Source of the DNA: Boletus sp. NGJ
Lineage: Eukaryota; Basidiomycota; Agaricomycetes; Boletales; Boletaceae
Direction: 5' to 3'
DNA: 64,000 bases
Assembly (NCBI GenBank): GCA_019096195.1
Contig: JAGTXK010000072.1
Span: 186,001-250,000, forward strand
Below the pieces are notes generated by a model, which ran no database searches, was not told where the DNA came from, and saw nothing but the letters and a program-made list of their open reading frames with translations. Shown here piece after piece: positions 851 to 58,300 of this stretch; position 1 is the stretch's first letter, and every line of letters begins with the position of its first letter. The position numbers and the translations under genes were made by a program.

Positions 851-3800
851 TATCATAACAGACCCACCCAGGTGACCAGATTTTCCAGGTCGTCTCTGCT
901 CTTGAAACGCGACCCCATTGGCAGATCCTATCCCTCTGCCGGCATTTCAACCAGTTCCCATCAGAGTGGGTTCCCCAGATTCACTCTTTTCCAATTGAAG
1001 TGGAAGATCTAGTCCAGATCCCAACCCAGGAAATCCCTGGCCAGATGAAGACTCAGACAATGAAGAAGACATGGTTGAAATCAAAGCTGCCTTGTCTGAG
1101 GAGTTCTCCAGCGAGACCAACGATGCCAAGAGATGGCTCATGGCAATGGAAGGGTACTTCCATTTAGGAGGCCCAGATAAATTCTCAGAGAAAGCCAAGC
1201 AGCTTATTCTACTGAACAGAATGTCCAAGAGAAGAGGAAAAGCATTTGCAGAAGCCTGGTTGACCAGGCTACTCGATGACACCATACTGGTTGCAGACAA
1301 ATTCTATAATGAAATCAAGAAAGCCTTCGCCTTCGCCTTCACCCCCCACAACACCAGCAACCTACCCATGGCAGAACTCAGATTCCTCTAACAAGACAAA
1401 AGGGATTCAAAGGGATTCAACAAGTTCATTTCCCAGTTCTTCTTGCTGGTAGTCTGCTCTGAGTTACAAGAATTCTGTTCCATCCTGTAATTCTTCCTCA
1501 GAGGAATCAATCTGAATATTGCCTGGCAACTATTCAACAGCGAGATCTTCCAAAAGGCTAAGAAAATGGAAGAGGTCTATGAAGTAGCTGCCAACATCCA
1601 TGGGGCATGACAATGGATCGAAGGATTACAGAAAGGACCCTTCACGTCCTTTGGAAGAGGAAGAGGAAATCACCACGATCCAAATGCCATGGATGTAGAC
1701 CGAATCACCCTGTTTTCTATTGAATGCACTAAGTGGATGAGAGAGCACAGATGCTTCATCTGCAACAAAATTGGGTGCAGTACCAGGAAACATCCTGAGT
1801 ATAGGCTGATTAGGAGAAAGGAGTATAGAAAACCTCAAGAAATGCACACCTGGGTTGTCACCACTAGAGAAACACCACAAGACCCCCTTGACACGTATCT
1901 GGCAGAGATCTCCAAGAACAATGGACAAGACAAAGTTCTCAGAATGCTCCAAACAGCCTTTGACATGGGGCTTGACAAGTGAGACCTCACTCTGGAATGA
2001 GCGGAGGAAGATGCCACAATAGAATGGGAAGAGAACATTAATGCTCTTGCTCTCAGACCCACTATGCAAATCTCCACTATTTCTCCCAATGATGAAACAT
2101 CTTTTTAGGTGGAGGAGAAGTACCAATATCACCCTCCTCCTATATGATTGCCCCTGTATTTATGTCTGAATTGAAGAGTAATTCTATTCCCATTCCTCTC
2201 TCGATCTGGAAACAGGATGGCAAAATCGTTGGAACAAATGCCCTAATTGACAGTGGAGCAACTAGATGCTTCATTTCCCAACAAGCAGTGGAAAAGATAA
2301 GATTACCCACATGGAAGCTGGACACCCCAGTCCAAGCTTGGAATGTCGATGGAATCCAAAATCAGTCAGGGACCATCAAGGAGAAGACCAACATTGTGTT
2401 GGACTATGGAGGCATATGAGAATGGCAGGACCTCTATGTCCTCAATTGTGGCAAAGACAAAGTCATTTTAGGACTTCCATGACTTAGGGCAGTGAACCCT
2501 GATATCAACTGGATGGAAGGATGGGTAACCATAGTGCCATCTTTCTACCAATGAACTGAAGGAGATCCACCAGGAACACTGGAACAGTGATATCTGCTAT
2601 GGTATCTGGAACACGATGAGAAAAAGTACATACAAGACAGACTCTGCGAGACTTTTCGTCGTTGGACGCCCTTACAATGGGCCAAGTTTTTCAATGCGCA
2701 TGGGGATGTACCAGAGTTCATTATCAAGAGAATGACTCTGTCTACTGAGATCGCCCAACAGGTGCCAAAGGCCAAGATTGCATTACCAAATGCATTCAAA
2801 GAATATGCGGACATCTTCACGGAGAAGACTATCATCAAGCTACCTCCCTCCTAACCCTATGATCATGCCATCAAGCTTAAAGACTTGTTTGTCCCAAAAC
2901 GAGCCAAGGCATATCCTCTAAATCCACTGGAACAACAGGCATGCAAGGAATTCATCAGTGAACATCTCAAAATGGGGAAGATATCTCCATCAAAATCTCC
3001 CCAAGCAGCCCCTTTCTTCTTCATACAGAAGAAAGATGGAAAGCTCCACCCCTGCCAAGACTATCAATACCTGAACAGCCACACAATCAAGAATGCCTAT
3101 CCTCTCCTCTTAATTTCTGATCTACTAGATAAATTAAGGAGGTTGTCGATCTTTACCAAATTTGACGTACAATGGGGCTACAACAATGTGCTAATCAAAC
3201 CAGAAGATTGATGGAAGGCAGCTTTCCTCACCCCATTTGGACTCTTTGAACCAAATGTGATGTTCTTTGGAATGTGCAATTCCCTAGCAACGTTCCAGGC
3301 CTTTATGGATGATCTCTTCAGAGATTATATTGTCGAGGGATGGTTGGTGATTTATATGGACGATCTGTTGATACACTCTTCAGATCAGATAACCCACAAC
3401 AAAAGGACACAGAAGGTCCTAGAATGCTTCTGACAGCATGAAATGTACCTCAAACTGAAGAAGTGCACCTTCTCAGCTGAAGAAGTCAAATATCTCAGAA
3501 TGATTGTAGAGAAGGACAGTGTCCAAATGGACCCAGTCAAGCTCAATGCCATCAAACAATGGACCCCCCCAGTGAATGTAAAGGATGTCCAGTCTTTCAT
3601 CAGGTTCTGCAACTTTTACTAGAAATTTATCCCCTTATTCTCTGATATTGCATGTCCACTGTTGGACCTCACAAAACAACAGATGCAATGGTCATGGGGA
3701 GCATCTCAAGGAAAGTCATTTAGAACCCTCCAAGCTGCATTCACAAAGAAACCCATCCTCACCTTCCCCAATACCTCAAAACTCTTTATCTTCATGACTG

Positions 3801-5334
3801 ACACTTCCCTCACTGTGTCCAGAGCAGCACTCATGTAGAACAATGACAATGGAGACATGCAACCATGTGGTTATCTCTCCCAGGCTTTCTCTCCCACTGA
3901 AAGAAATTATGACATATATAAGAGGGAATTATTGGCTGTCATACGAGGCTTGAAAGAATGGCAGCAATACCTTTGAGGATCACCCCACCCTGTGACGGTA
4001 TTAATCAATCACAAAAATCTGACATTCTTCAAAGAACCTAGACAATTATCCTGACGACAAGCATGGTGGCTTTTGTTCCTCCAAGACTATGACATGGTCT
4101 ACCACACTCTATCCAGAATAAAAATGGCCCCCACTGATGCCCTCTTCTGTTGAGATGAAGTGGATACTTCCAAAGACAATGAGGACCTTCAACTCCTTCC
4201 ATCTGAGGCCTTTGATCATCAAGTGTGGATGATCAACCTAGCATTGGCCAAGAAAATTAGAGAATCCTCCCCATCAGATCCCCTAGTTCTCTCTGCCCTA
4301 GAATGCATGGAGAAGGAAGAACCCCTCTTCAAACAATCAAATGTGGAAGATTGGACCTTTGACAATGGCAATCTATACTTTAAAAAATGAATGTATATTC
4401 CTGGACCAGCCCAGCAGGAATTAGTGTCCTCTGTCCATTCCTCTTTCGAAGGCGGACATAGAGGACACCTCTAAACCTCCGCCCTTCTGGCCAAAGACTA
4501 CTAGTGGCCTGGGCTCACTACATTCATCCACAAATATGTCGCCAGCTGTGCTATCTGTCAAAGTAACAAGGTCCAGACACACCCAACAGTTCCCCCGGTC
4601 AATCCATTAGCCTTCAAAAAACACCATCCGTTTCAAAATCTTTTGGTGGATTTAATCACCAACCTGCTCCTGATGGGGGGCTTCAATTCAGTCATGGTCG
4701 TGGTCAACCATGGTCTTAGTAAGGGGGTAATTCTTGCCCCTTGTACAAAAATGGTGGACGTGGCTGGTATAGCCCATCTTTTCTTTGGAAAGGTCTTCCT
4801 ATGGTATGGTTTACACAACAAACTGGTCTCAGATGGTGGCCCACAATTTGCATCTGCCTTTGCTTGGGAGCTTGCATGACTCTTGAGCTATGACATCACC
4901 CTCTCCACAGCCTATCACCCACAAACAGATGGCGAAATAGAATGGTATAATCAAGAACTAGAAACCTACCTACAGATATTCTGCAACGGCCAACCACAGA
5001 GGTGGTTGGAACTACTACCAATGGCAGAGTTTGCTCATAACCCTGCAGCTCATTCAGTCACCAGAAAGTCACCCTTCTCTCTGATCCTCGGATATAAACC
5101 AAGAGCATATCCCCCTATCAGGAAAACTTTCCTACCAGCCCTAGAGGAAAGACTCTCATTCCTAGAGGAAGCAAGATAAGAAGCAGAAGCAGTCCACAAA
5201 CTTGCACAAATACAAATGAAGGAGAGAGTTCACTCTTGCTTCAAACCATGGAAGCTTGGAGACAAGGTATGGCTAGATGCCAAGAACCTAAAACTCCAAG
5301 TCCCATCCCAGAAACTGTTCCCAAAATGTACCAG

Positions 5335-5998
5335 TGTTACGACTACCCTGGGTAAGGATAGGCGTTAACTTGGATAGTCGAGTAGCGACGGGCTACCGGG
5401 GGTCAAAGGAGGTAGCTTAACAAGCTACGAGACGGAGAGTCCCTTGGTGGATCAAGGGGTTCAACAATGAAGAGTCTTCCTTGTCGTAGGGTCAAGAGTT
5501 CAACAACGAAGGGTCTTTCTCGTCGTAGGGTCAAGGGTTCGACGACAAAGGGTCTATCTTGTCGTAGGGTCAAGGGTTCGATGACAAAGGGTCTTCCTTG
5601 TCGTAGTCGAGGGTTCACTCAGGGAGTGAAATCGAGACGTGGAAGAAGTGTTCACTCAAAGTAGAACAATGACTTGTAGAGGTCCGGAGGAACGATGATG
5701 AAAGTTCACCAAGTAGGTGTAAATTGCAGGATCAACTACAAGGGCAGGGTTTATATACATACTGAAGTGTGGGAAAAGGATGAGTAAGCTGCAGCACCGG
5801 AGAGATCCTATGGAGTGGGAAATAGAAGGGATCTTCTGTATGAAGTCAGTGTAGAAGTACAAGTGGTGTAGGGGGTGCAAGGATGAGCCTTGGCTACATG
5901 GAGCCCCACAGTGTAGCAAATGGTCCAAGGGAGGTTAGGAGGACGAGGTAAGAGCGAGGATGACTAGCAGGAAGAAAGAAAAGAAGAGAATCGTAACA
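5335..5998 (-). repeat. 3' LTR of nested Gypsy copy 2
   Basis: 664 bp, TGTTAC...GTAACA on the plus strand. It contains four copies of a 39-bp unit (about 5,465-5,620) where the partner LTR has three, which accounts for the length difference. A TATATAAA box in element orientation lies about 5,748-5,758. It is about 3-4 percent different from its partner outside the 39-bp array. Confidence 0.92.
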
Positions 5999-6036
5999 TT
6001 ACCCCCCTGTTATACGCGAAGTACCACTGAGCAACC

Positions 6037-7197
6037 TTAGTCCAAACCACAGTAGGACCCACAAGGGGATCTGGTCATGTTACTCATAGCGGCGCTGTCA
6101 AAGACGTCCGGTTCATCATAAGGGTCTGTTGGTGCGGTAGGACGGTTGTGGTGTGTAACCTCCGTGGTAAGACGATGGAGGAAGGAGCAGTGACGAGTGA
6201 GATGAGCACCGCGGATGGGTGGTGGAGGAGGTACACATTGAATTGAATGAGGTGAGGAGGACGTTTGGCCAGACGATGACGACGAGGTGGATGGGGTCTG
6301 CGGGTTCAGATGATGCTGTAGGGGACAGCGTGCTTGTGTGTGACCGGGTTTCCAACGCAAGCATTGGGGGCATTGATAGACGGGGCAGCGGACGCGTAAA
6401 TGACCTAGACGGTGACATTGATAGCAGGCCTCGGAGTAACGAGGGTGAGAGGGTCCTAAGGGGACCGCTCCATCATGACCTGTCCAGTAAGCTTCTTCAC
6501 GGTGGACGACCGCGAGTTCCTCGTCACCTAGAGGGGACGACGAGGCTGATGGTGTGGAGGGTGCGGGAAGCATTGCTGTGATGGGACGGTTGGCTAAGTC
6601 CCTCATGTATCTGTCAAGGTCATCTAGGAGCTCGACGGCTCTGAGCTGATGGAGGGCGTTAAGGAGCGCTGCTTTGAGTTCACTGGAAATGCCCCAGAGG
6701 CGAAGCTGGGTTAAGGAGAGGTGGGTGTTGGCAGTGTTGCGGTTGGTGATGGACTTGAGGTTGGCCGCTTGTAGGTATGCTTTGTAGAGGGAGTATAGGG
6801 GGGAGGCGTAGTCCAAGTGGGCCCTGAGTCCTAGTGCCATTTGTGGGTCCTCAAGGTTCTCTGTGAGGTGGGTGACCTTGGCTAGGTCCGGGAAGTCATT
6901 GCATAGGCGTGTGGTGTAGATGGGGATGTCTACTGACATGATCGGTGTGGGGGTAGAGGCTAGCAAGACCAGTGTCGGTGAGTAAGGAAGGCAATGTTTG
7001 CCGCGGGGAGAAGGTAACAGAAGAGAATTAGGACAAGAGTAGTCGTCAAGAGGGGAGCTAGAACACGAGAGTGACGAAGGAGAGGAGAGAGTAGGAGATA
7101 TAGTACGGCTACCAGGTATCATAGAAAGAACAAATGAGGAGGTGGACATGGCGGCATTGGGGAAGGTCATTGTGTTAGTGACGAGGGGAATGGTCAT
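6037..7197 (-). CDS. Extra 3' ORF of the nested Gypsy element, double zinc knuckle
   Basis: An open frame of 386 codons lies downstream of the chromodomain and before the polypurine tract, outside the standard gag-pol set. The N-terminal third is Ser/Pro-rich. A middle part of about 110 residues is Leu/Ala-rich and probably helical. The C-terminal part is Pro/Ser-rich and holds two knuckles in tandem: CYQCHRLGHLRVRC (CX2CX4HX4C) and CPQCLRWKPGHTQARC (CX2CX6HX4C). The start codon overlaps the stop of the chromodomain frame as ATGA, which suggests coupled termination and reinitiation. Zinc knuckles bind single-stranded nucleic acid in Gag nucleocapsids, so a second Gag-like or RNA-chaperone role is a reasonable inference. 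I do not recognise the protein as a named family. Confidence 0.75.
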   Translation of the reverse strand: MTIPLVTNTMTFPNAAMSTSSFVLSMIPGSRTISPTLSSPSSLSCSSSPLDDYSCPNSLLLPSPRGKHCLPYSPTLVLLASTPTPIMSVDIPIYTTRLCNDFPDLAKVTHLTENLEDPQMALGLRAHLDYASPLYSLYKAYLQAANLKSITNRNTANTHLSLTQLRLWGISSELKAALLNALHQLRAVELLDDLDRYMRDLANRPITAMLPAPSTPSASSSPLGDEELAVVHREEAYWTGHDGAVPLGPSHPRYSEACYQCHRLGHLRVRCPVYQCPQCLRWKPGHTQARCPLQHHLNPQTPSTSSSSSGQTSSSPHSIQCVPPPPPIRGAHLTRHCSFLHRLTTEVTHHNRPTAPTDPYDEPDVFDSAAMSNMTRSPCGSYCGLD

Positions 7198-10100
7198 GGT
7201 ACGAGTTTGAGCAAGGTGATGGAGGGGAATATCCTGGGGTGATGTTTCTTATAGTCAAGCAGAGTGGAGTTGGCATGTTTCAAATCCCATTCGGGGACCC
7301 ATGAGTCTTCTTCTGTGGAGTACCCTTTCCATCGGATCAGGAAGGAACAGCAAGACGGGGAGCCGCAATGTTGTAGGACTTTGTTGATTTCATATTCCTC
7401 TTCACCGGCTATCAAGTCAGGTGGTGGTTTTATGAAATGTTTGCTGTAAGTGGCATTCTCGTGACATGGAGAGAGGAGCGAGGCATGGAAGACCGGGTGG
7501 ATCTTCTATGTGGTTGGGAGGCGGAGTTTGTAGACGATGGGAGATAGGACATGCATGATGGTAAATGGACCTTCTCGCTTCGGTGCGAACTTCAGGTCAG
7601 CAATGGAGCGTTTCAGATTTCTTGCTTCTAGCCAGACCTTGTCGCCTTTCTTGAATGGGGTGAAGTGACAGTGGATGCGAGAGGCCATGACCTGTTGTGC
7701 AAGTTCATGCACTGCTAGGGCTTCATCCTTGATGGCAGAGAGTTTCTGGATGTGTTCCTTCAGAGCGGGAATTGTGGAGTCAGGGACAACCGATGGGAGG
7801 GCACGGAGTTCATATCCCATGAGGAGGAAGAATGGGGATTGCCCGGTGACGGAGTGGGGTCGGTGGTTGTGGGTGAATTCGGTGTGGGAGATCTTCTCAG
7901 CCCAAGTAGTGGGTTCATTGCCGCAGAAGATCCGGAGGTAGGTTTCGATCTCCTGATTGACCCGTTCCGTTTCTCCATCGGATTGGGGGTGGTAAGCAGT
8001 GGAGAGGGAAAGGTCATATTTCAGGAGTTTTCCAAGTTCTTTGGCAAAGGCTGAGGCGAATTGGGGTCCTTGGTCGGAGATAATCTTGTTGTAGAGGCCA
8101 AAGCGGAGGTATACTTTGTGGAAGAAAAGGGTTGCGATCCCTTCCGCAGTCACTGATTTCTTCATAGGGCAAAGGATTACCCCCTTTGTAAGCCCATGGT
8201 TGACCACGACCAACAGGGAATCAAAGCCAGAAGATGGGGGCAAGTCGGTGATGAGGTCACAGGATACCTGGCGGAAGGGAAGTGAGGTGGTGGAGCAGAT
8301 GGGGTTCAAGGGGGGGATGGTGGGGTGAGTGTTCGCCTTGTTCTGCTGGCATGAAGGGCAGCCAGACACGTAAGCACGGACATAGGAGGCAAGGCCAGGC
8401 CACCAGAAGTCGGCAGAGACGAGCTGTTGGGTTTTCTGGTAGCCGGGGTGGCCGGCTGACTCATGGTCGTGGCAGCATTGGAGAACCGAGCGTCGGAGGG
8501 AATCGTCTGGGGGAACGTAAATGCGGTTGCAATAGAATAGAAGGCTGTCTAAGTACAACCAATCAGAGAGGCGGGTGCGGAGGTATCCGTTGCTTGGAGG
8601 TGTTGGAGGACGAGGGGGTTGGACAGGGAGGACCGCTGGATGAGGGAGGCTAATGAGGTGTCAATTAGATTGACAAACATGGAAGGGGGGAGGAGGGTGA
8701 CACCCTCGTTGTCGGCATCAGTCGACGGGATGAGGTTGGGATGACGAGAAAGGGCATCTGGGCCAGCGAGGAGGCGGCCGGGGACATGGATGATTTTGAG
8801 ATCAAAATCGGCGAGGTCAAGGAGCCAGTGGGCTTGCCGGCGATTGAGGTTCTGAGGGGACTTAAAGTACAATAGGTTCTTGTGATCGGTAAAAACCTGT
8901 ATGGGGAAGGGGGAGCCATATAGGTAGTGGCGCCATAATTTCAGTGCGTGGATGACGGCAAGGAGTTCGCGGTCATAAATGTCATAGTTCCACTCAGCGG
9001 GGGAGAAGGACTGCAAGAGGTACAAACAGAGGTGCCAGTCACCGTTGGTGTCAGTTTGTAGAAGGATGGCGCCTGTGGCGTACTTCAAGGTGTCCATGGC
9101 AATGGTGAAGGGGGCGGAGAAGTCCAGCAGATGGAGGACTGGTTTTGCCAGGAAGAGACATTTAAGGTGGTCGAACGTGTCCTGGCATTCGTTCAACCAA
9201 GCCCAGGGTCGGTTGAGCTTCGTGAGGTCAATGAGGGGGCAGGCGATTGTGGAGCAGTCTGGGATGAATCGATGGTGGAAGTTGGCGAAGCCAAGGAATG
9301 ATCGAACTCCGGTAACTTTGGTGGGGGCAGGCCACTTGGCAATCCTGTCAAGCTTGACGGGGTCCATAGCCAACTGGTTGGGGCGGACAATCATCCCAAG
9401 GTATTCCACCTCATCGGTAATGAAGGTACACTTCTCGAGCTTGAGGTGGAGGTCAAGCTCGGTCATGTGCTGGAGGACGTGTTTGGTTCATTCGGTGTGC
9501 AGGGTATCGTCTGGGGAGAAGATGAGGAGGTTGTCCATATAAATGATGAGCCATCCTTCAGCGATCATGTCTTTGAAGGAATCATTCATGAATCATTGGA
9601 AAGTCGTGGGGGAGTTGCACAGGCCAAAGAACATGATGGTGGGTTCATAGAGGCCTCGGTGCGTGATGAAAGCGGCTTTCCACTGGTGACCATCTTTGAT
9701 GTGTACATTGTTATACCCCCAGCGGACGTCGAACTTAGTGAAGGTTGTCACCCCCTTGAGCTTGTCAATGAGATTAGAGACTAAGGGGAGAGGGTAGGCG
9801 TCGTGAACAGTGTGTTCGTTGATGTATCGGTAGTCTTGGCATGGGCGGAGGTCACCGTTCTTTTTCTTGACAAAGAAGAAAGGGGAAGCTTGGGGAGAGG
9901 TCGACGGGCGGATTTTTCCTGTTTTAAGGTGTTCGTCAAGAAAGTCTTCAGTCACTTTCTGCTCATGGGGGGAGAGAGGGTATACCTTCCCGATCTTTGG
10001 GACAAAAGTTTCCTTGATGTTGATTTCATGGTCATATGGGTGTGATGGGGGAACATGGTCAGTGGCCTCCTTTGAGAAGACGGAGGCGTAGTCAGCATAT

Positions 10101-12082
10101 GCTGCAAGGAGGGTTGGCTTCAGTTTTGCCTTCTCGGCAGCTTCTGTGAGTTCGGTGGCGACCATGATTTTGGTGACGACGGAGGAGGCGATGTATTTGT
10201 ATGCTCCTCGGATGATCTGGTGCAAGACACGGTTCCAGTTCGCATTTCATAGGTACTCTCACTCTTCAGTTTCCTTCTGGAGGAAGCTGCGGAGGTGGTG
10301 ACAGGTCTGAAGGTTTATGTTGATGTGGCCTGGTCGGGACGAGGGTTCATCTGCTTCCATGGGGGTGGGTTTGGTTCTCATGTGGTATAGGTCGGCGGAC
10401 TGGTCAAGGGTTTCATCAAGGGTGAGGGTGTTAGCCGCCTAGTCGATGGTTGGGTTACAAGAGTGGAGCCAAGGTTGGCCCAGGATGATGTTTTCTTGTC
10501 CGCAGGAGATGACATGGAGGGTCATCCTCATAAAGACGCCCTTGATGTTAACGAAGAGGTCACAGGTGAATTTGATGTCTCCGTTCTTGTTGAACGAGGT
10601 GTCTGCGTTTCGAACACAGATGGGGGTGTGGAGTCATGTGGTCAGGAGTTTATGTTTTCGCATGAACTGATAGTCAATGCAGGAGATTTCTGCACCACTG
10701 TCCATGAGGGCACTGATATTGACGGCTTTCTTAGCATGTGCAGGGATGAGGAGTTGAATAGAGATACAAATGCCTTTCAATTTCAACTCTACTGTTACAG
10801 CGGCACAACTAAGAGAAGGGGAAACATGCGTTGAAGGTGTTCCCCATTTCAAAAAACCCAAAGAGACTTGTCCGACAGTCTCTCCGTCAGAGTCTCCCTC
10901 TTCTTGTTCGACAACCCTGACTTTCTTGGCAGGGGAAGTCTTCACCTTCTTGGTGGGAGAGGTGAAGGTGGTATATGCGGTGGTGATGTGACCCGGTTGG
11001 TGACAGCGGAAGCAAAGCTTTTGGTCGAAGCAATGTTTCTGTTCTTCAGGGGTCAACTTGGGGATGGAGATGGCATCGACGTCCATGGTGTCAGGGTCTC
11101 GGGGTTTGGAGGAGATGGGCAAGGAGAAGGAGTGGTAGGTGTGTGCGGACAGTTTGTTACTCCTTTTGGTGATTTCGTCGGCTCTTTCCCATTGTGTTTG
11201 GAAATGGATGGCATGGGAGTACCACTCTTCGATGGTGGTGGGTACTGTGTCCATGGACATGATCCGTCACATAAGCCCAGATGGGATTCCGGCGGAGTAG
11301 TACCCGATGAGGACATTCGGGTCAACAATCTTAGCGAGGGAAGTGTTGTTCTGGAATTCCGACGTGTATTGTGTGAGGGGAGGAGAGTACGAGTTGTCTC
11401 ACTTCTTAACCATTCACTTGGTGGACAGCCAGGCAATGGCATTACCAGTGGTATCTTGGTGTTTGAATGCCTTTTCAAAGGCGGTGATGAAGTCGGCGAA
11501 TGACCCGAGCGTGATGGTGACACCATTGATGGCGTTCTGTTGATAGGTGGTAGCCCAGGTGAGGGCTGGTCCTTTGTTCATATAGGACAGGGCGAAGGTG
11601 ATTTGTTTGGCATCGGTGTCGTAGACTTTGGCGTTGACATGGAGGTAGAACTGAACGGTGTTCAACCAAGGTACCGAGGTGTCAAAGGAGCCATCATAGG
11701 CTTCAGGGGTACCGATATGGAGTTCGGTGGGTCGAGCTGCCGAAGACATGGGTGACGGGGGAGGGGGTGGTGCAGAGAATGAGGGTACTGCCGTCAACGG
11801 TGTTGGAGACAGTGGTATGGGGGTCCTTGGTAGACATAGGTGACCTGAGAGTTGGTGAGATAAGTCAAGGGCCGTGTCTTGTTGTTGTTGGGACGGGAGG
11901 TCAAGGTTGAGGTCAGTATCTGATGATCCCTCTTCGTGGTCAGAAGAGTTGTCGTCAGTGGGTGGTGTCTCGGCACATGCACGAGGGTCCCACCACACAG
12001 GGTTCAGGGTAGGACGTTGGCAAGCAATGGTGGGTGGAGGACTATAACAGTGATAGCCTCAGGTTAGAGAATTTACACCTTT

Positions 12083-12707
12083 TGTTACGACTACCCTGGG
12101 TAAGGATAGGCATTAACTTGGATAGTCGAGTAGCGACGGGCTACTGGGGGTCAAAGGAGGTAGCTTAACAAGCTACGAGACGGAGAGTCCCTTGGTGGAT
12201 CAAGGGGTTCAACGACGAAGAGTCTTCCTTGTCGTAGGGTCAAGGGTTCGACGACAAAGGGTCTACCTCGTCATAGGGTCAAGGGTTTGACGACAAAGGG
12301 TCTTCCTTGTCGTAGTCAAGGGTTCACTCAGGGAGTGAAATCGAGACATGGAAGAAGTGTTCACTCAAAGTAGAACAACGACTTGTAGAGGTCTGGAGGA
12401 ACGATGATGAAAGTTCACCAAGTAGGTGTAAATTGCAGGATCAACTACAAGGGCAGGGTTTATATACATACTGAAGCGTGGGAAAAGGATGAGTAAGCCA
12501 CAGCACTGGAGAGATCCTATGGAGTGGGAAATAGAAGGGATCTTCTGTATAAAGTCAGTGTAGAAGTACAAGTGGTGTAAGGGGTGCAAGGATGAGCCTT
12601 GGCTACATAGAGCCCCACAGTGTAGCGAATGGTCCAAGGGAGGTTAGGAGGACGAGGTAAGAGTGAGGACAACTAGCAAAAAGAAAGAAAAGAAGAGAAT
12701 CATAACA
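12083..12707 (-). repeat. 5' LTR of nested Gypsy copy 2
   Basis: 625 bp, same borders as its partner. All the differences I could find between the two LTRs are transitions, many at CpG sites. On the internal side (below 12,083) I do not see a TGG-starting tRNA primer-binding site, so the priming mode is unclear. Confidence 0.92.
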
Positions 12708-14416
12708 ACCAGACCATTTGAAATTACTCAAGTGGTATCCTCCATGGCGTTCCAACTCAAACTACCAAAACAGTGGAAGATCCACAATGTGTTCCATGCA
12801 TTCCTACTTTCCCTGTATCGGAAAACTATGGAACATGGCCCAAATTTCACTCAACTGCCACTGGAACTTATCAGAACAGAAGAGGAGTACAAAGTGGACA
12901 GCATCATAAACCATTGGAGAAAACCGGGAAGAAGGTAGTACTTGACCCATTGGAAAGGATATTCCACTGCAGAACAAACTTGGGAGCCAGAAGCCAACTT
13001 GGAAAATGCCAAGAAAATACTTAGTGTAAAACCCAACTGAAACTCTGAGAAGAGATCAATGCCCCAGAACAACACCTCCCTGTTCATACTCCTAGCCCAC
13101 GTATCTGCTGCCCTTACCCAAGCTCGTCTTCAGAAACAATATCCTGACCTTGACATTCCCAAACACATTGACCAGCATTCCTGCTTCTGCCAATTAACTA
13201 CTGCCCATACCACACCAACTGGTAGATAGCAATCGCCCCTCTTTCTGAATGCCTTAACTGACTCTCCCCCATCCACCATTGAAACCTCTATGCATCAGTG
13301 CTCGATGACCCCATTACAATCAGAACCCTCCAATCCATTCCTTTCTTCACCTACAATGATTCCCTCATCCAACTTGTTGCTCTCTATAGATTCTACTCCA
13401 CACTTTGATCTGTTCTTGCCAGGATCACTGGGAGCTCAACAAGTTCCCATGTCTTCAATTCCCAGCAGACTGCTGAAGAAGAGAGGGCAACGGAAAGTGT
13501 TATCAAAATTCACGAACTTATTCTCAACCTCCTTTTCATCGAGGGATTCAACTATTTCCTCGCCCTTTTACCTGTCAACACCTGTGATTGCCTCCTCCAT
13601 GCCACCCTCCTCTCCCTCTCAGAGGAGGAAAGTCACCTTTTCTTTGCCCCCTCATCAACCACCACGCCCTCCTACCCCATTCCATCTCAACGAATCCCTT
13701 CTGTTGCAGAGCAACCCCTGGAGAACATCAACGGAATCAGAGGCATTAACAGAGTTGATAGAAACTCTCCAGAGATATGGAGAGCCCAGTCCTCCAATGA
13801 CACCATTGTCACCTCCCCTTCCTCTACAATCTCCAACCCCTCCTTCTGAGGAACCACCACAGTACTAGTCCTCCCAGTTCCTTCCCCAGCCCTTTCCTGT
13901 CAGACCAGAACTCTCCATCAGCAAGGAGCCCTGGTGTTCTCAGCCAGTCTCCCCTCTCACCCCAACAACAGAGGTCTTTTCAACACACTGGAGAACACTA
14001 TAACGAGAAGCCCTCCTCCTTCCTCCATTTCCATTCCTGGAGCTGCTACATGCACCTCTCCTACCAACCATTCTGACTCAATGGCTGGTAATTCCCATCA
14101 TGTGTCCAGTGCCCAACCAGCTCATCACCATCAAACTCCCATCTCTGGCCTCCACTATTTCAAATGCAGACATCAAGGTTACCTTTGGCCTGCCTGTCCC
14201 CACTACTGATGCCCCTACTGTTGGGTGGTTGCCCCCAACCATCCACAGTATGCTTGCCCACAAAGGAATTGCACCTACTGTGGAGAACGAGGACATGGTT
14301 ACCAGACCTGTCCAAGCCAGGGAGTCTTCAATGACTCCTGGGACCTTACCAACTACAAGGAGAACGAGGGAGACAGAAGTTCTTGAGATGGAACTTCAAG
14401 ACTACAAAGAGGATAA

Positions 14417-43200: not shown

Positions 43201-43617
43201 ATTCCCTTGCCCTTCTACCCATCATTATCCATGATCACATCCTTCACACCACCCTCCTCTCCCTCTCAGAAGAAGAAAGTCACCTTTTCTTTGCCCCCTC
43301 ATCGACCACCATGACCCCCTACCCCATTCCCCCTTGACAAGTCTCTTCCATTGCAGAGTGACCCTTGGAGGATGTCAACAGAGCCCAAGGTATTACAGAG
43401 TGTTGCATAAGAAACTGCAGTGGCTGATTTGCATCTGACATATTTGGCTTTGTTTTTTTATCCAGAAATATCCAAATTAGTATGCAAATGTCATATTAAA
43501 AATAATAAAACTTCTGAGCTGCATGTGACCAAGACTTGATCATTGAAATATTGACTGCTCCACTTACAATGGCACCTCACCTTGACCTACAGCTTCAAAA
43601 CTGAATCGTTGTCTGGC

Positions 43618-44632
43618 ACTATGAAGGCAGAAAGTCTGCTTGGGAGATAGCAGAGCTGGCTGACTGCTCTGAGTGCACCGTGTATGATATTCTTAGACTA
43701 CACTGGAACTTTGGACAAGTCATGGAACCATTCCAGCATGGTTGGAGATGCCCTCGAGTTCTGCAGCATGGCGACATCACATATATTTCATCTATTCTTG
43801 ATGCAAATCCCACTCTCTATCTTGGCAAGATCCAACAGCAGCTACTAGATGTCCAGAACATTGAAGTATCTATCACAACCCTATCTCGTGCAATTCATCA
43901 CCTCTAACTTACCCACAAGAAGCTTTGCAAGACAGCAGCCAAGAGAAATGAGCTGCTTTGCACAATTTGGCAAGCTGAATATGGGGACATTTTGATGGAA
44001 TGCTTTATTTGGATTGATGAGTCAAGTGTAGATGATCATATGAACCAGTGGACAAATGGATGGTCCCAACTCAGACAAGTTTGTGTGCGATGTGACACAT
44101 TCATTTGTGGGCAGCAATTCTCCATCTTGCCAGCATTGTCTATTGATGGAATAATTGCACTGGATATCTTCAAAGGGTCTGTCAATAAGGAGAAATTTGT
44201 CACATTCTTAAGACATCAGCTTGTATGTTATCATTTTTGTTATCATATCTTTGCTAATTGTTCTGGTAGGTTCCAAAGTTGACTCCCTATCCAGGTCCCT
44301 GCAGTGTTGTTGTAATGGACAATTGCTCAATCCATCATGATGATGAAGTCCATCAGATAATTGAGATTGAATGTGGTGAGTGTCATCTAGTATCATAAAT
44401 TTCAGTCATCTCATTGCCTCTCCTTCCAGGTGCAAAGTTGATATATTTGCCTTCTTACTCCCCAGACTTCAATCCTATTAAGCAGGCATTTTCCTCAATC
44501 AAAGGATGGTTGAGGTGTCATGAACGTGAGGCACTGACGCCTGAGGTTAGGCCTTGGTTAATTCATCAGGCTGTTATGTCAGTGTTATCTGAAGATGCGA
44601 AGAGCTGGATCTTTAATTGTGGGTACTCATAA
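43618..44632 (+). pseudogene. Mariner-like DDE_3 transposase with catalytic Glu changed to Lys
   Basis: Exons are joined by introns at 44,223-44,269 and 44,376-44,429 (GT-AG). The N-terminal helix-turn-helix region includes SAWEIAELADCSECTVYDIL. The core shows the first Asp in WIDESSVDDHMNQW, a strand with ALSIDGIIALDIFKGSVNK, the second Asp in VVMDNCSIHHDDE, and SPDFNPIKQAFSSIKGWL where relatives have NPIE: codon AAG for GAG, 35 residues after the second Asp. There is also a stop at about 43,905 (after IHHL). This is the spliced type of Tc1/mariner transposase common in Agaricomycetes. Without the third acidic residue it should not cut DNA. Confidence 0.88.
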
Positions 44633-55331: not shown

Positions 55332-58300
55332 TTAAGTTGAGTCAGACGAGTCCGAGTCCGAGTCGGTGAACAGCCAGGCGTCAGATCTACCCTTCCTTCG
55401 AACTGATCTCTGAGATCTCTGGCTCGCATGCGACATGTCCGAATCCGACTCGTTGGGCGTGACCGTCCTCAGGCTCCGGGACCAGCCATCGTCGCTGCGA
55501 TCACTGAAAAGACATCAGATAGGAGCCAAGTCAAACGGGAGCGCGCTTCTCACCTGACACCAGTCTTGTTTCTCGCAATCTGCAGCGGTATTATGTGTCC
55601 ATTCGAGCTACCGATAGCAGTCTCAGTGGTGGCCGTGTCTGTCGTCCGTTGTCTGGCGGGTCGAGGGGTGCTTTCGTGTTCGCCGTCATTGTGGAGCGAA
55701 GCAAACCCACTGAACGGTTTCTTCCGCTCGCGTGATGCAGTAATCTCCGTGCTGACACGTGTGTCGGGATCTGCGCTCGCCCTGCTCTTCCTGATGCTCG
55801 CCTTGTGTTTCGAGTCACCGACTCGGACGGGCTTCACGGAGTCATTTAGCCGCGCCGTCGCCCTGACTGCCTTGCCCCGCACCCCGTTCCTTGCGGTACA
55901 CGCGGACGGCCTGCTCGTCAAGCTGTCCACAGACATCGCATCCGATTCCGAGTCACCCGCAACAGCCCACTGCCTCGTCCTGCGCGTCGCACTCGCCCCA
56001 GAGACCTCCGAGGCATCCTCTGCTTCAACCTTGCCCTCCGCACGTGCCTTGGTCTCCTTCGCTTGCTGCGCCCGCTCCAGTGCCTTCTCTCGCCGACTCT
56101 CCCGCGCCTTGGCGCGTTGTGCAGCTTGCTCTTCTTCCATCATCTCTTTCTCGACTTTTTCTTCCTCTGCAAGTTCTTTTCGTCGGGCTCGCGCTCGTTC
56201 CATGACGATTTTGTCCGCGACGTCCATCCCATCGTCGGCACCATTGCGTTTGTTCTCGCCTGTGTCTGGGAACATGGCGACGCCGTATTGTGCGCTTTCA
56301 CGCAAGGTCACGATCGCATCGTCGATGTCAGCGCAAAGATCCTGCGCAATGAGTCGAACAGCTGCCTCGGGTACAAGAATGCGCTGAATGAATTCAGCGG
56401 GTGCAAGCGGCGCAATGAGAGACGCATCAAATGTCGACGGTGGAAAGAGATCAAAAAGGGTCTGATGTATGATCACCGAGCCTTGCTCGCCATAGCTGCC
56501 AACGGTCATTGGCGTCTCCGTTAGGTCGCGAATAAAGGGAGCGACGTACTATCCTGGCTGCGTCTTTTCAAAGCTTGCGAATTGGCCTTTGACGCCGACC
56601 ACTGTTCGACTGCCCTGCTTCTTCACCTCTTTCTTCACTTCTCTCCAGAAAAAGCTTTTTATCCTTGGTCCTCTAAGTCCATCGTCGGTATCGAGGCCCT
56701 CGGTATCGCTGATATCGTCCTTGTCCAAGATAATGGCTTCCAATTCTTTCTTCATCTTCTTGACTCTCATTGGAACCTTTGCAAAGTCGATCGCCTTCGG
56801 CCAGCCTCTCTCGGTTGCGATCGGGAGCTGGTGTGATTCAAAGCGATGCCGTTGACAAACGGATATGTAGATCGTCAATGGCGCTTTTAAACCACCCCGA
56901 TTTCTCGGTCGCGGATCTGAAACCGACTTTTTGCGCGCTATTGTAAGCAAGTGCTGGAGAAATGGAGTGGGATGGGAGGGCAATTCCTCGTCACAATAGG
57001 GACACATCTCTGAGGGATCTCGAGCGTAACCCAACTCAGCTTTATGCAAGGGTTCGTGTGAGAACAAAAATGTGGGTCACCCAGAACATTGGCGGCTTAC
57101 TGGAATCGTCTTCCATAGGCTCGTGCAGATGGTCGAACGTGTCCAACACCCTGAAGCGATTTGGAACGATGACTGAGTAAGCAGGGCTTCGAAGGTGAGA
57201 TCAAAAAGACGCACCTTGAACGCGAGTCCTTGTGCTTTTTCGCAGTACGTCCTTGTTCGGCATCGCTATCATCGGATGAAGCACGCTTCTGGGATATGAG
57301 ACTGCGCGTGCTGGGCGACTTTGACCGCCGGTCGATACCCGCAAGCATCTGAGAACTCAAGGGGAACGGTTTAGGACCACCGCGCTTGCCCGGGGCGTCT
57401 GTCAAGTCGACGTAGTTCTCGTCGGGGTGTTTTTCACGCGTCTTACCTTTTTCATTTGAGGAAGAGAGAGGTGACAAGTTAGGGAATGTGATTCCACGCG
57501 AGACAGGTTTCGTCTTCAATGGAGAAGGAAGGGGGATCGGTTTGGGAGTTTGCACGAACGTTGCGGTACGTGATATAACAGCTTTCTTGGTCTTGGTGGA
57601 GGAGGCATCGCCGCTCCATGCACCGTCGGAGACATTTTCTTTTGCTTGCAGTGACATGGGGAATTCTTGTGGTTCTCTATGTAACGATGAAGCAGGGAGT
57701 GGTTTCTTGACAATTACTTTGCTGTTCGCATTTGCAGGTAGTTCGGGTGTCTTGCTACGTAGCGGCAACTCGCGGTTCCGCGCCACGGGACGTGGTGTGG
57801 CTTCAGGGCTACTTTCGCGTCGACGAGGGGCAGATTTAATGACGACGCGTGGCTTTGGGCGTGGTTTGGCGGGTGATCGTGTGGTGTCCTTGGCTATTGA
57901 AGAGGACGGTTTGGAAGTGGAAGAGTCCTTGGCCTCGGTAAACCGACGGGCTGCAGAACGTGTCGCGCTGGGACTCCTACGACGCGTCGAGGACGGACCA
58001 CCTGGCGGAAGGTCGTCGATAATCTCAATAACGTCTTCTGATATCGGCTTGAACAAATCCTGAGAGTCGGTAAGGGATGATGATGGTGGTGCTATCTCTG
58101 AGACAGCGTCTCCAGCAGGTGTACTCTTCTTGTTCTTCTTGAACCGAATCCTCTTCAAGGCATCGGACGACGATGGCTTATAGTCCGGGTGTGCAGGGAG
58201 AACACGACCGTTGACGCGTATCGTTTCCTCCTCATCTGAAGGAATAGTTCCTCTTGCGGTGCGCTTCGCGGGCGAGGTCGCGTCGCGTCCCATAGAGTTC

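Follow-up and report, generated by a model that had tools for sequence, protein, structure and literature searches.

The window analysed here, a 64,000-nucleotide stretch of a Boletus sp. NGJ contig, carries on its minus strand a Ty3/Gypsy chromovirus bounded by two LTRs that are 89.8% identical over 664 columns, including 39 gap letters, and flanked at both edges by the same target-site duplication (Table 1). This class assignment is based on LTRs that begin with TG and end with CA, a short target duplication, a polypurine tract, and the chromovirus domain order between the LTRs, namely gag, protease, reverse transcriptase, RNase H, integrase, and chromodomain, assigned through Pfam with gag below the curated cut-offs and the protease motif recognized by eye. 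Stops and frameshifts disrupt both gag and pol in this copy, and the copy itself may be dead. Downstream of pol, a 386-codon frame, here called ORF3, remains open from an ATG at 7197-7195 to a TAA. The first-pass annotation had delimited this frame exactly, and its placement after the chromodomain ORF and before the polypurine tract CAGGGGGGTAA is borne out, the strand being minus; it recognized ORF3 and missed both the broken state of gag and pol and the overlapping frame inside ORF3.

Table 1. Features of the chromovirus and its surroundings in the window
Feature	Position	Strand	Basis
3' LTR (element sense)	5335-5998	-	LTR comparison
5' LTR (element sense)	12083-12707	-	LTR comparison
Polypurine tract, adjoining the LTR	5999-6009	-	sequence
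Target-site duplication ACCAG	5330-5334	.	sequence
Target-site duplication ACCAG	12708-12712	.	sequence
ORF3, tandem zinc-knuckle protein, 386-codon frame, open in the window copy	6037-7197	-	
ATGA, in which the ORF3 start codon and the pol stop TGA overlap	7194-7197	-	sequence; identical in 21/21 copies
Pol-frame overlapping ORF, ATG 7157-7155, TAG 6962-6960	6960-7157	-	hydrophobic product of 65 residues where uninterrupted
Conserved ORF3 domain, residues 76-215, no Pfam match	6553-6972	-	dN/dS; helices from a low-confidence model only
Knuckle 1, CX2CX4HX4C	6385-6426	-	
Knuckle 2, CX2CX6HX4C	6325-6372	-	
Chromodomain end of pol	7194-7505	-	Pfam Chromo E 4e-8
Pol integrase region, ending in an in-frame TAG in the window copy	7506-8660	-	Integrase_H2C2 4e-22
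RNase H part of pol	8549-9487	-	RT_RNaseH 1e-31
Reverse transcriptase part of pol	9593-10246	-	RVT_1 6e-11
Gag end carrying a damaged Gag knuckle, plus a protease-like segment	10634-11266	-	by eye; zf-CCHC_2 only E 0.19
Gag, capsid part	11414-12058	-	DUF4939, Ty3_capsid, Retrotrans_gag, all below curated cut-offs
Decayed ORF3 region of an older chromovirus (family B)	13059-14395	+	knuckles at about 14153-14330 by eye

The element was inserted into an older plus-strand chromovirus, designated family B, parts of which lie at 859-5334 and from 12708 onwards, and further family B-related stretches occupy about 31.9-37.9 kb and 40.3-48.1 kb of the window. Between two family B parts, plus-strand frames at 43605-44632 resemble, by eye and by motif, a Tc1/mariner-type transposase. 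At 55550-56548 lies an RTC4-like gene, of a type spread among fungi, which fits the fungal origin assigned to the element in the first pass.

Searching the genome, a single assembly of 32.8 Mb in 141 contigs, with ORF3 returned 85 matches. A set of 21 copies was assembled from the window copy and the 20 next-best places (L009-L028), each taken as a 9.9 kb stretch, and all 21 present the order chromodomain-ORF3-LTR, L025 carrying an insert of about 1 kb near the end of ORF3. Among 14 divergent loci chosen from lower-ranked places, at roughly 35-55% identity, a chromodomain match lies upstream of ORF3 in 12, this comparison covering the chromodomain side. Within this one genome, homologues of the extra knuckle ORF thus occupy the proposed position between chromodomain and LTR, and a second chromovirus family holds a relative.

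Selection on ORF3 was estimated by a simple counting method without transition correction. The whole frame shows a median dN/dS of 0.22 over 209 pairs, while codons 61-300 give 0.13 against 1.14 and 1.42 in off-frame controls, falling to 0.08 once CpG-touching codons are removed, and residues 131-215 give 0.11. In addition, ORF3 carries 0.15 stops per 100 codons, the lowest value among seven gene pieces (0.24-0.75 in the others). By these comparisons, ORF3 is a conserved third gene of a Ty3/Gypsy chromovirus, located downstream of pol, and its middle domain and double knuckle are under purifying selection. The window ORF3 found no match in NCBIfam, no relatives were confirmed in IMG/VR or GTDB genomes, a search of the PDB by sequence returned weak matches only, Gag and Lin-28 knuckles among them, and Rfam gave no match at gathering scores. 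An alignment-free structure prediction for residues 75-300 proved useless (mean pLDDT 36.5, pTM 0.20).

The two tandem CCHC knuckles described in the first pass, one canonical and one with two extra residues, have their patterns confirmed and are conserved across copies. Knuckle 1 spans residues 258-271 (CYQCHRLGHLRVRC, CX2CX4HX4C) and knuckle 2 residues 276-291 (CPQCLRWKPGHTQARC, CX2CX6HX4C). Over the eight zinc-ligand sites and 21 rows, five sites are invariant, two differ in a single row, L018 in both cases, and the final cysteine shows three changes and one gap, such that each ligand is kept in 17-21 of the 21 rows and the knuckle cysteines are conserved as far as this one genome extends. 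The Pfam family zf-CCHC (PF00098) scores the window ORF3 at 13.9 bits, below its curated cut-off of 20.8, and matches two of 14 ORF3 members, with a best E of 3e-4.

The pol stop TGA shares bases with the ORF3 ATG as ATGA in all 21 copies, preceded by ACC or, in L028, by ACT. Across the 14 divergent loci, the ATGA overlap recurs in four, the pol stop lies 1-19 nt ahead of the ATG in six and 34 nt ahead in one, one has no near ATG, and two are not assessable, some of these distances being uncertain because the frames are broken. In family B, the pol stop precedes the next ATG by 9 nt in both L043 and L044. Overlapping or adjacent stop and start codons are characteristic of coupled termination-reinitiation, and by analogy the junction of pol and ORF3 has that layout. 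No unusual RNA folding was detected near the junction in nine pseudoknot-free folds from five copies (z -1.7 to 1.4). Read-through of the UGA, which would extend pol, was also considered and set aside: pol-frame constraint is absent from codons 1-12, where several copies also carry a further stop.

Selection in the ORF3 frame is not visible over codons 1-60, where median dN/dS, with wide ranges, is 1.08 in the ORF3 frame, 0.36 in the pol frame, and 0.88 in the third frame. Differences counted by ORF3 codon position in 20 rows, L027 being left out owing to a frameshift there, amount to 0.212/0.122/0.104 over codons 13-78, with the third position slowest, and to 0.138/0.068/0.319 over codons 131-215. 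Of 91 20-codon blocks drawn from the gag, pol, and ORF3 pieces, only five have a third position that is not the fastest, and four of these are ORF3 codons 1-80; the fifth, chromodomain codons 41-60, is marginal (0.20/0.09/0.17). The distribution of variable columns by codon position differs between codons 13-78 and 79-300 (p 5e-6) and, with three divergent sub-clades pooled (11 loci, codons 31-75 versus 121-240), again differs (p 8e-10), both values calling for caution because related copies do not contribute fully independent columns. Sub-clade D1 shows the effect most weakly.

The pol frame in this region opens with an ATG at ORF3 bases 41-43 and closes with a TAG at 236-238. Neither codon varies in any of the 20 rows, and in L019, where the frame is open, the product has 65 residues. 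In each of the 20 copies, the mean hydropathy of this peptide exceeds that from 400 of 400 synonymous ORF3 recodings, and its best 19-residue stretch surpasses all 400 in 19 copies and 398 in L015. All 11 divergent loci compared have a hydrophobic stretch in the pol frame with an upstream Met, with stops between the two in four. The 65-residue peptide has no Pfam match at E 0.1 and one weak PDB match (E 0.39). Coding constraint in a second frame, as overlapping genes display, is present, and at the sequence level these patterns show that the pol frame within ORF3 codons 13-78 is a second coding frame, whose start and stop do not vary and whose hydrophobic product is under selection. The pol-frame ATG lies in a weak context (C at position -3 in 19 of the 20 rows, C at +4), and an ORF3-frame ATG precedes it in some copies, including that of the window. 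Conservation of the peptide alone would give 0.33 ORF3-frame stops per copy over codons 13-79, with a chance of none of 0.71 for each copy; the 20 related copies contain none, and this absence weakly supports translation of ORF3 across these codons. As a separate observation, a 174-codon alternative frame of equal length overlaps gag in six of the 21 copies (window 11053-11577, minus strand), and the third codon positions of gag do not show the ORF3-type pattern.

Among the 20 rows of the main clade, 11 have the pol-frame ORF interrupted once or twice by a stop, including the window copy with its TGA at 7121-7119; we tentatively ascribe these stops to CpG decay. TGA predominates among stops across the gene pieces (94 of 114 in the listed types; 123 in all), which fits CpG decay in part, and 40 of the TGA stops fall at sites where the window has Arg. 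The CpG content is 0.46-0.93 of expectation in six copies and 1.10 in the gene-rich end of the window. The CpG depletion and many TGA stops of the window element and L009-L013 suggest a methylation-linked decay of copies.

Family B shares about 66-69% identity with the window element in aligned pol DNA stretches, and its 3' region encodes the knuckle patterns CX2CX4HX4C and CX2CX6HX4C, plus a third knuckle in L044. A profile comparison between ORF3 and family B aligns 45 columns at 44% identity (probability 96%, E 1e-9) and includes the odd six-residue spacing, so that, judged from profiles, the double knuckle with its CX2CX6HX4C member recurs in a second, distant chromovirus family. In L043, one of the open family B copies that point to recent movement (see below), the third knuckle is broken by a one-base difference from L044, which counts against a need for it.

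Used as a genome query, the family B piece gave 120 matches. Neighbourhoods were compared for the 150 chromodomain matches that were scored out of 428 candidates, using 99 of 120 places for family B and 81 of 85 for the window ORF3. Among those scored, 28 are followed within 1.8 kb by a family B match, usually some 880 bases downstream, none has one upstream, and most have neither ORF3 nearby. Only one of the 150 has a window-ORF3 match within 1.5 kb downstream, since chromodomains of the window element's family are scarcely among those scored. The open frames around eight family B chromodomains run to 1229-1264 codons, that around a ninth to 496, and eight family B ORF3 matches have identical scores and zero stops. 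Together, the open pol and ORF3 frames and the identical scores suggest recent transposition of family B in this genome.

Besides, family B presents a second long open frame overlapping its knuckle ORF (381 codons at L043:763-1908; window 13230-13868, plus strand), which looks constrained at L043:1491-1670 from codon-position differences. A conserved 55-codon ORF begins 9 nt past the pol stop (L043:591-758, window 13059-13229) and ends in an in-frame TAG followed directly by ATG in L043 and L044 and by ATA in the window copy, and one frame stays coding-like on either side of this TAG. A proposed similarity between a small family B ORF and ORF3 residues 89-108 was dropped at a probability of 1.7%.

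The first pass had proposed a second Gag-like protein. ORF3 would then be a second Gag, a duplicated or captured nucleocapsid protein with a capsid fold, and the tandem knuckles, the helices in the middle of ORF3 (from a poor model), and the Gag and Lin-28 knuckles among the few PDB matches would agree with it. However, DUF4939, Ty3_capsid, and Retrotrans_gag match eight of eight Gag members at E up to 1, whereas no capsid family is among those matched by the 14 ORF3 members, and a profile alignment between ORF3 and Gag extends over just 25 columns, around a single knuckle (probability 39%). Gag itself sits at the 5' end of the element with a knuckle of its own, and we regard the proposal as unlikely. 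Even less can be said for an Env-like gene, in which the 3' module would encode an envelope-type membrane protein: its location after pol is appropriate, and the pol-frame ORF has hydrophobic segments (best 19-residue mean 2.2-2.7 in 20 copies), but the window ORF3 protein reaches only 1.32 by the same measure and has no membrane segment, so it is not itself Env-like, and a hydrophobic ORF of just 65 residues leaves scant room for an ectodomain, making this reading very improbable.

A different expression route would join the pol-frame hydrophobic stretch to ORF3 by a -1 frameshift near codon 76, yielding a membrane-anchored knuckle protein. The constraint does pass from the pol frame to the ORF3 frame at codons 75-79, with no visible ORF3-frame selection upstream, and the openness of the ORF3 frame speaks only weakly for its translation there, so that a fusion keeps some plausibility; yet no X XXY YYZ heptamer occurs in the pol phase over codons 11-86 in 20 copies, and the invariant TAG and the conserved ATGA of ORF3 would be unneeded, for which reasons we doubt it. 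Alternatively, the slow third positions of codons 13-78 could reflect an RNA signal for packaging, priming, or reinitiation and not a second protein. Strong nucleotide conservation adjoining the junction would suit such a signal, but the pattern has a codon period in which the fast position has moved by one, hydrophobicity of the pol-frame peptide exceeds that of recodings, and folding near the junction is not unusual, leaving it quite unlikely. That ORF3 is a decayed or chance open frame without function is scarcely credible: the broken gag and pol of the window copy and the stops in ORF3 of many copies point that way, against which stand the contrast between in-frame and off-frame dN/dS (0.13 vs 1.1-1.4) and the retention of the zinc ligands.

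We lean towards two overlapping 3' accessory genes in a fungal chromovirus lineage, with ORF3 reached by termination-reinitiation. On the full-length RNA, ribosomes ending pol at the UGA would resume at the overlapping AUG and make a little ORF3 protein, while others would initiate at the pol-frame AUG 40 bases further along and make the membrane-type peptide of 65 residues; the 3' end of the element would thus hold a pair of overlapping accessory genes. The ORF3 protein may bind element RNA or cDNA through its knuckles, acting as a nucleocapsid-like chaperone or a post-transcriptional regulator, with the middle domain perhaps engaged in self- or partner-binding, and the hydrophobic peptide would sit in a membrane. 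We infer expression, RNA binding, and membrane insertion of these products from sequence features. A wider proposal, to which we give slightly less than even credence, is that of a retrovirus-like 3' module composed of a reinitiated tandem-knuckle nucleic-acid-binding protein and a small membrane protein overprinted on its disordered start, a second family having a homologous knuckle gene and its own long overlapping frame.

For LTR retrotransposons, gag and pol are commonly regarded as sufficient. In HTLV-type retroviruses, 3' accessory genes encode small hydrophobic products, and the small overlapping frames downstream of pol resemble them in layout alone. Victoriviruses and SART1 use termination-reinitiation at overlapping stop-start codons with the aid of structured RNA (PMC5972666). 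The window element shares with them the overlap of stop and start codons between two cistrons on one RNA; unlike them, it is an LTR retrotransposon, its junction lies between pol and a third gene, a structured element was not found, and reinitiation is predicted from sequence.

In fungi, Novikova et al. (2010) drew an "additional ORF of unknown function" in full-length Gypsy elements (PMC2864245), and ORF3 can be likened to it by description alone, since the accessible text gives no element, place, domains, start codon, or overlap. Likewise, the accessible account of BcGypsy1 from Botrytis cinerea reports an additional ORF, brtn (PMC8365987), comparable to ORF3 only as an additional ORF of a fungal Gypsy element. 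In plants and rotifers, the additional ORFs known from LTR retrotransposons are described as env-like, antisense transposase-28 type, or enzyme-derived; sense-strand ORFs between pol and the 3' LTR, some with membrane segments, resemble the present arrangement, and rotifer Juno has an extra Zn knuckle, but inside pol after dUTPase, while the available parts of these accounts mention neither a knuckle ORF after the chromodomain nor an overlapping hydrophobic ORF (PMC7264820, PMC11963269, PMC5408684, PMC5718144). Searches of the open-licence PMC literature gave no description of either feature, and those of PMC3248453 and PMC10627285 do not mention ORF3 or the overlap.

If the proposed reading is true, overlapping accessory genes can be maintained by a fungal element much as they are by complex retroviruses, with a third gene placed at a stop-start overlap and a second gene hidden inside it. 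A membrane-type product in an element thought to be intracellular would raise the question of whether membranes take part in its assembly or transfer.
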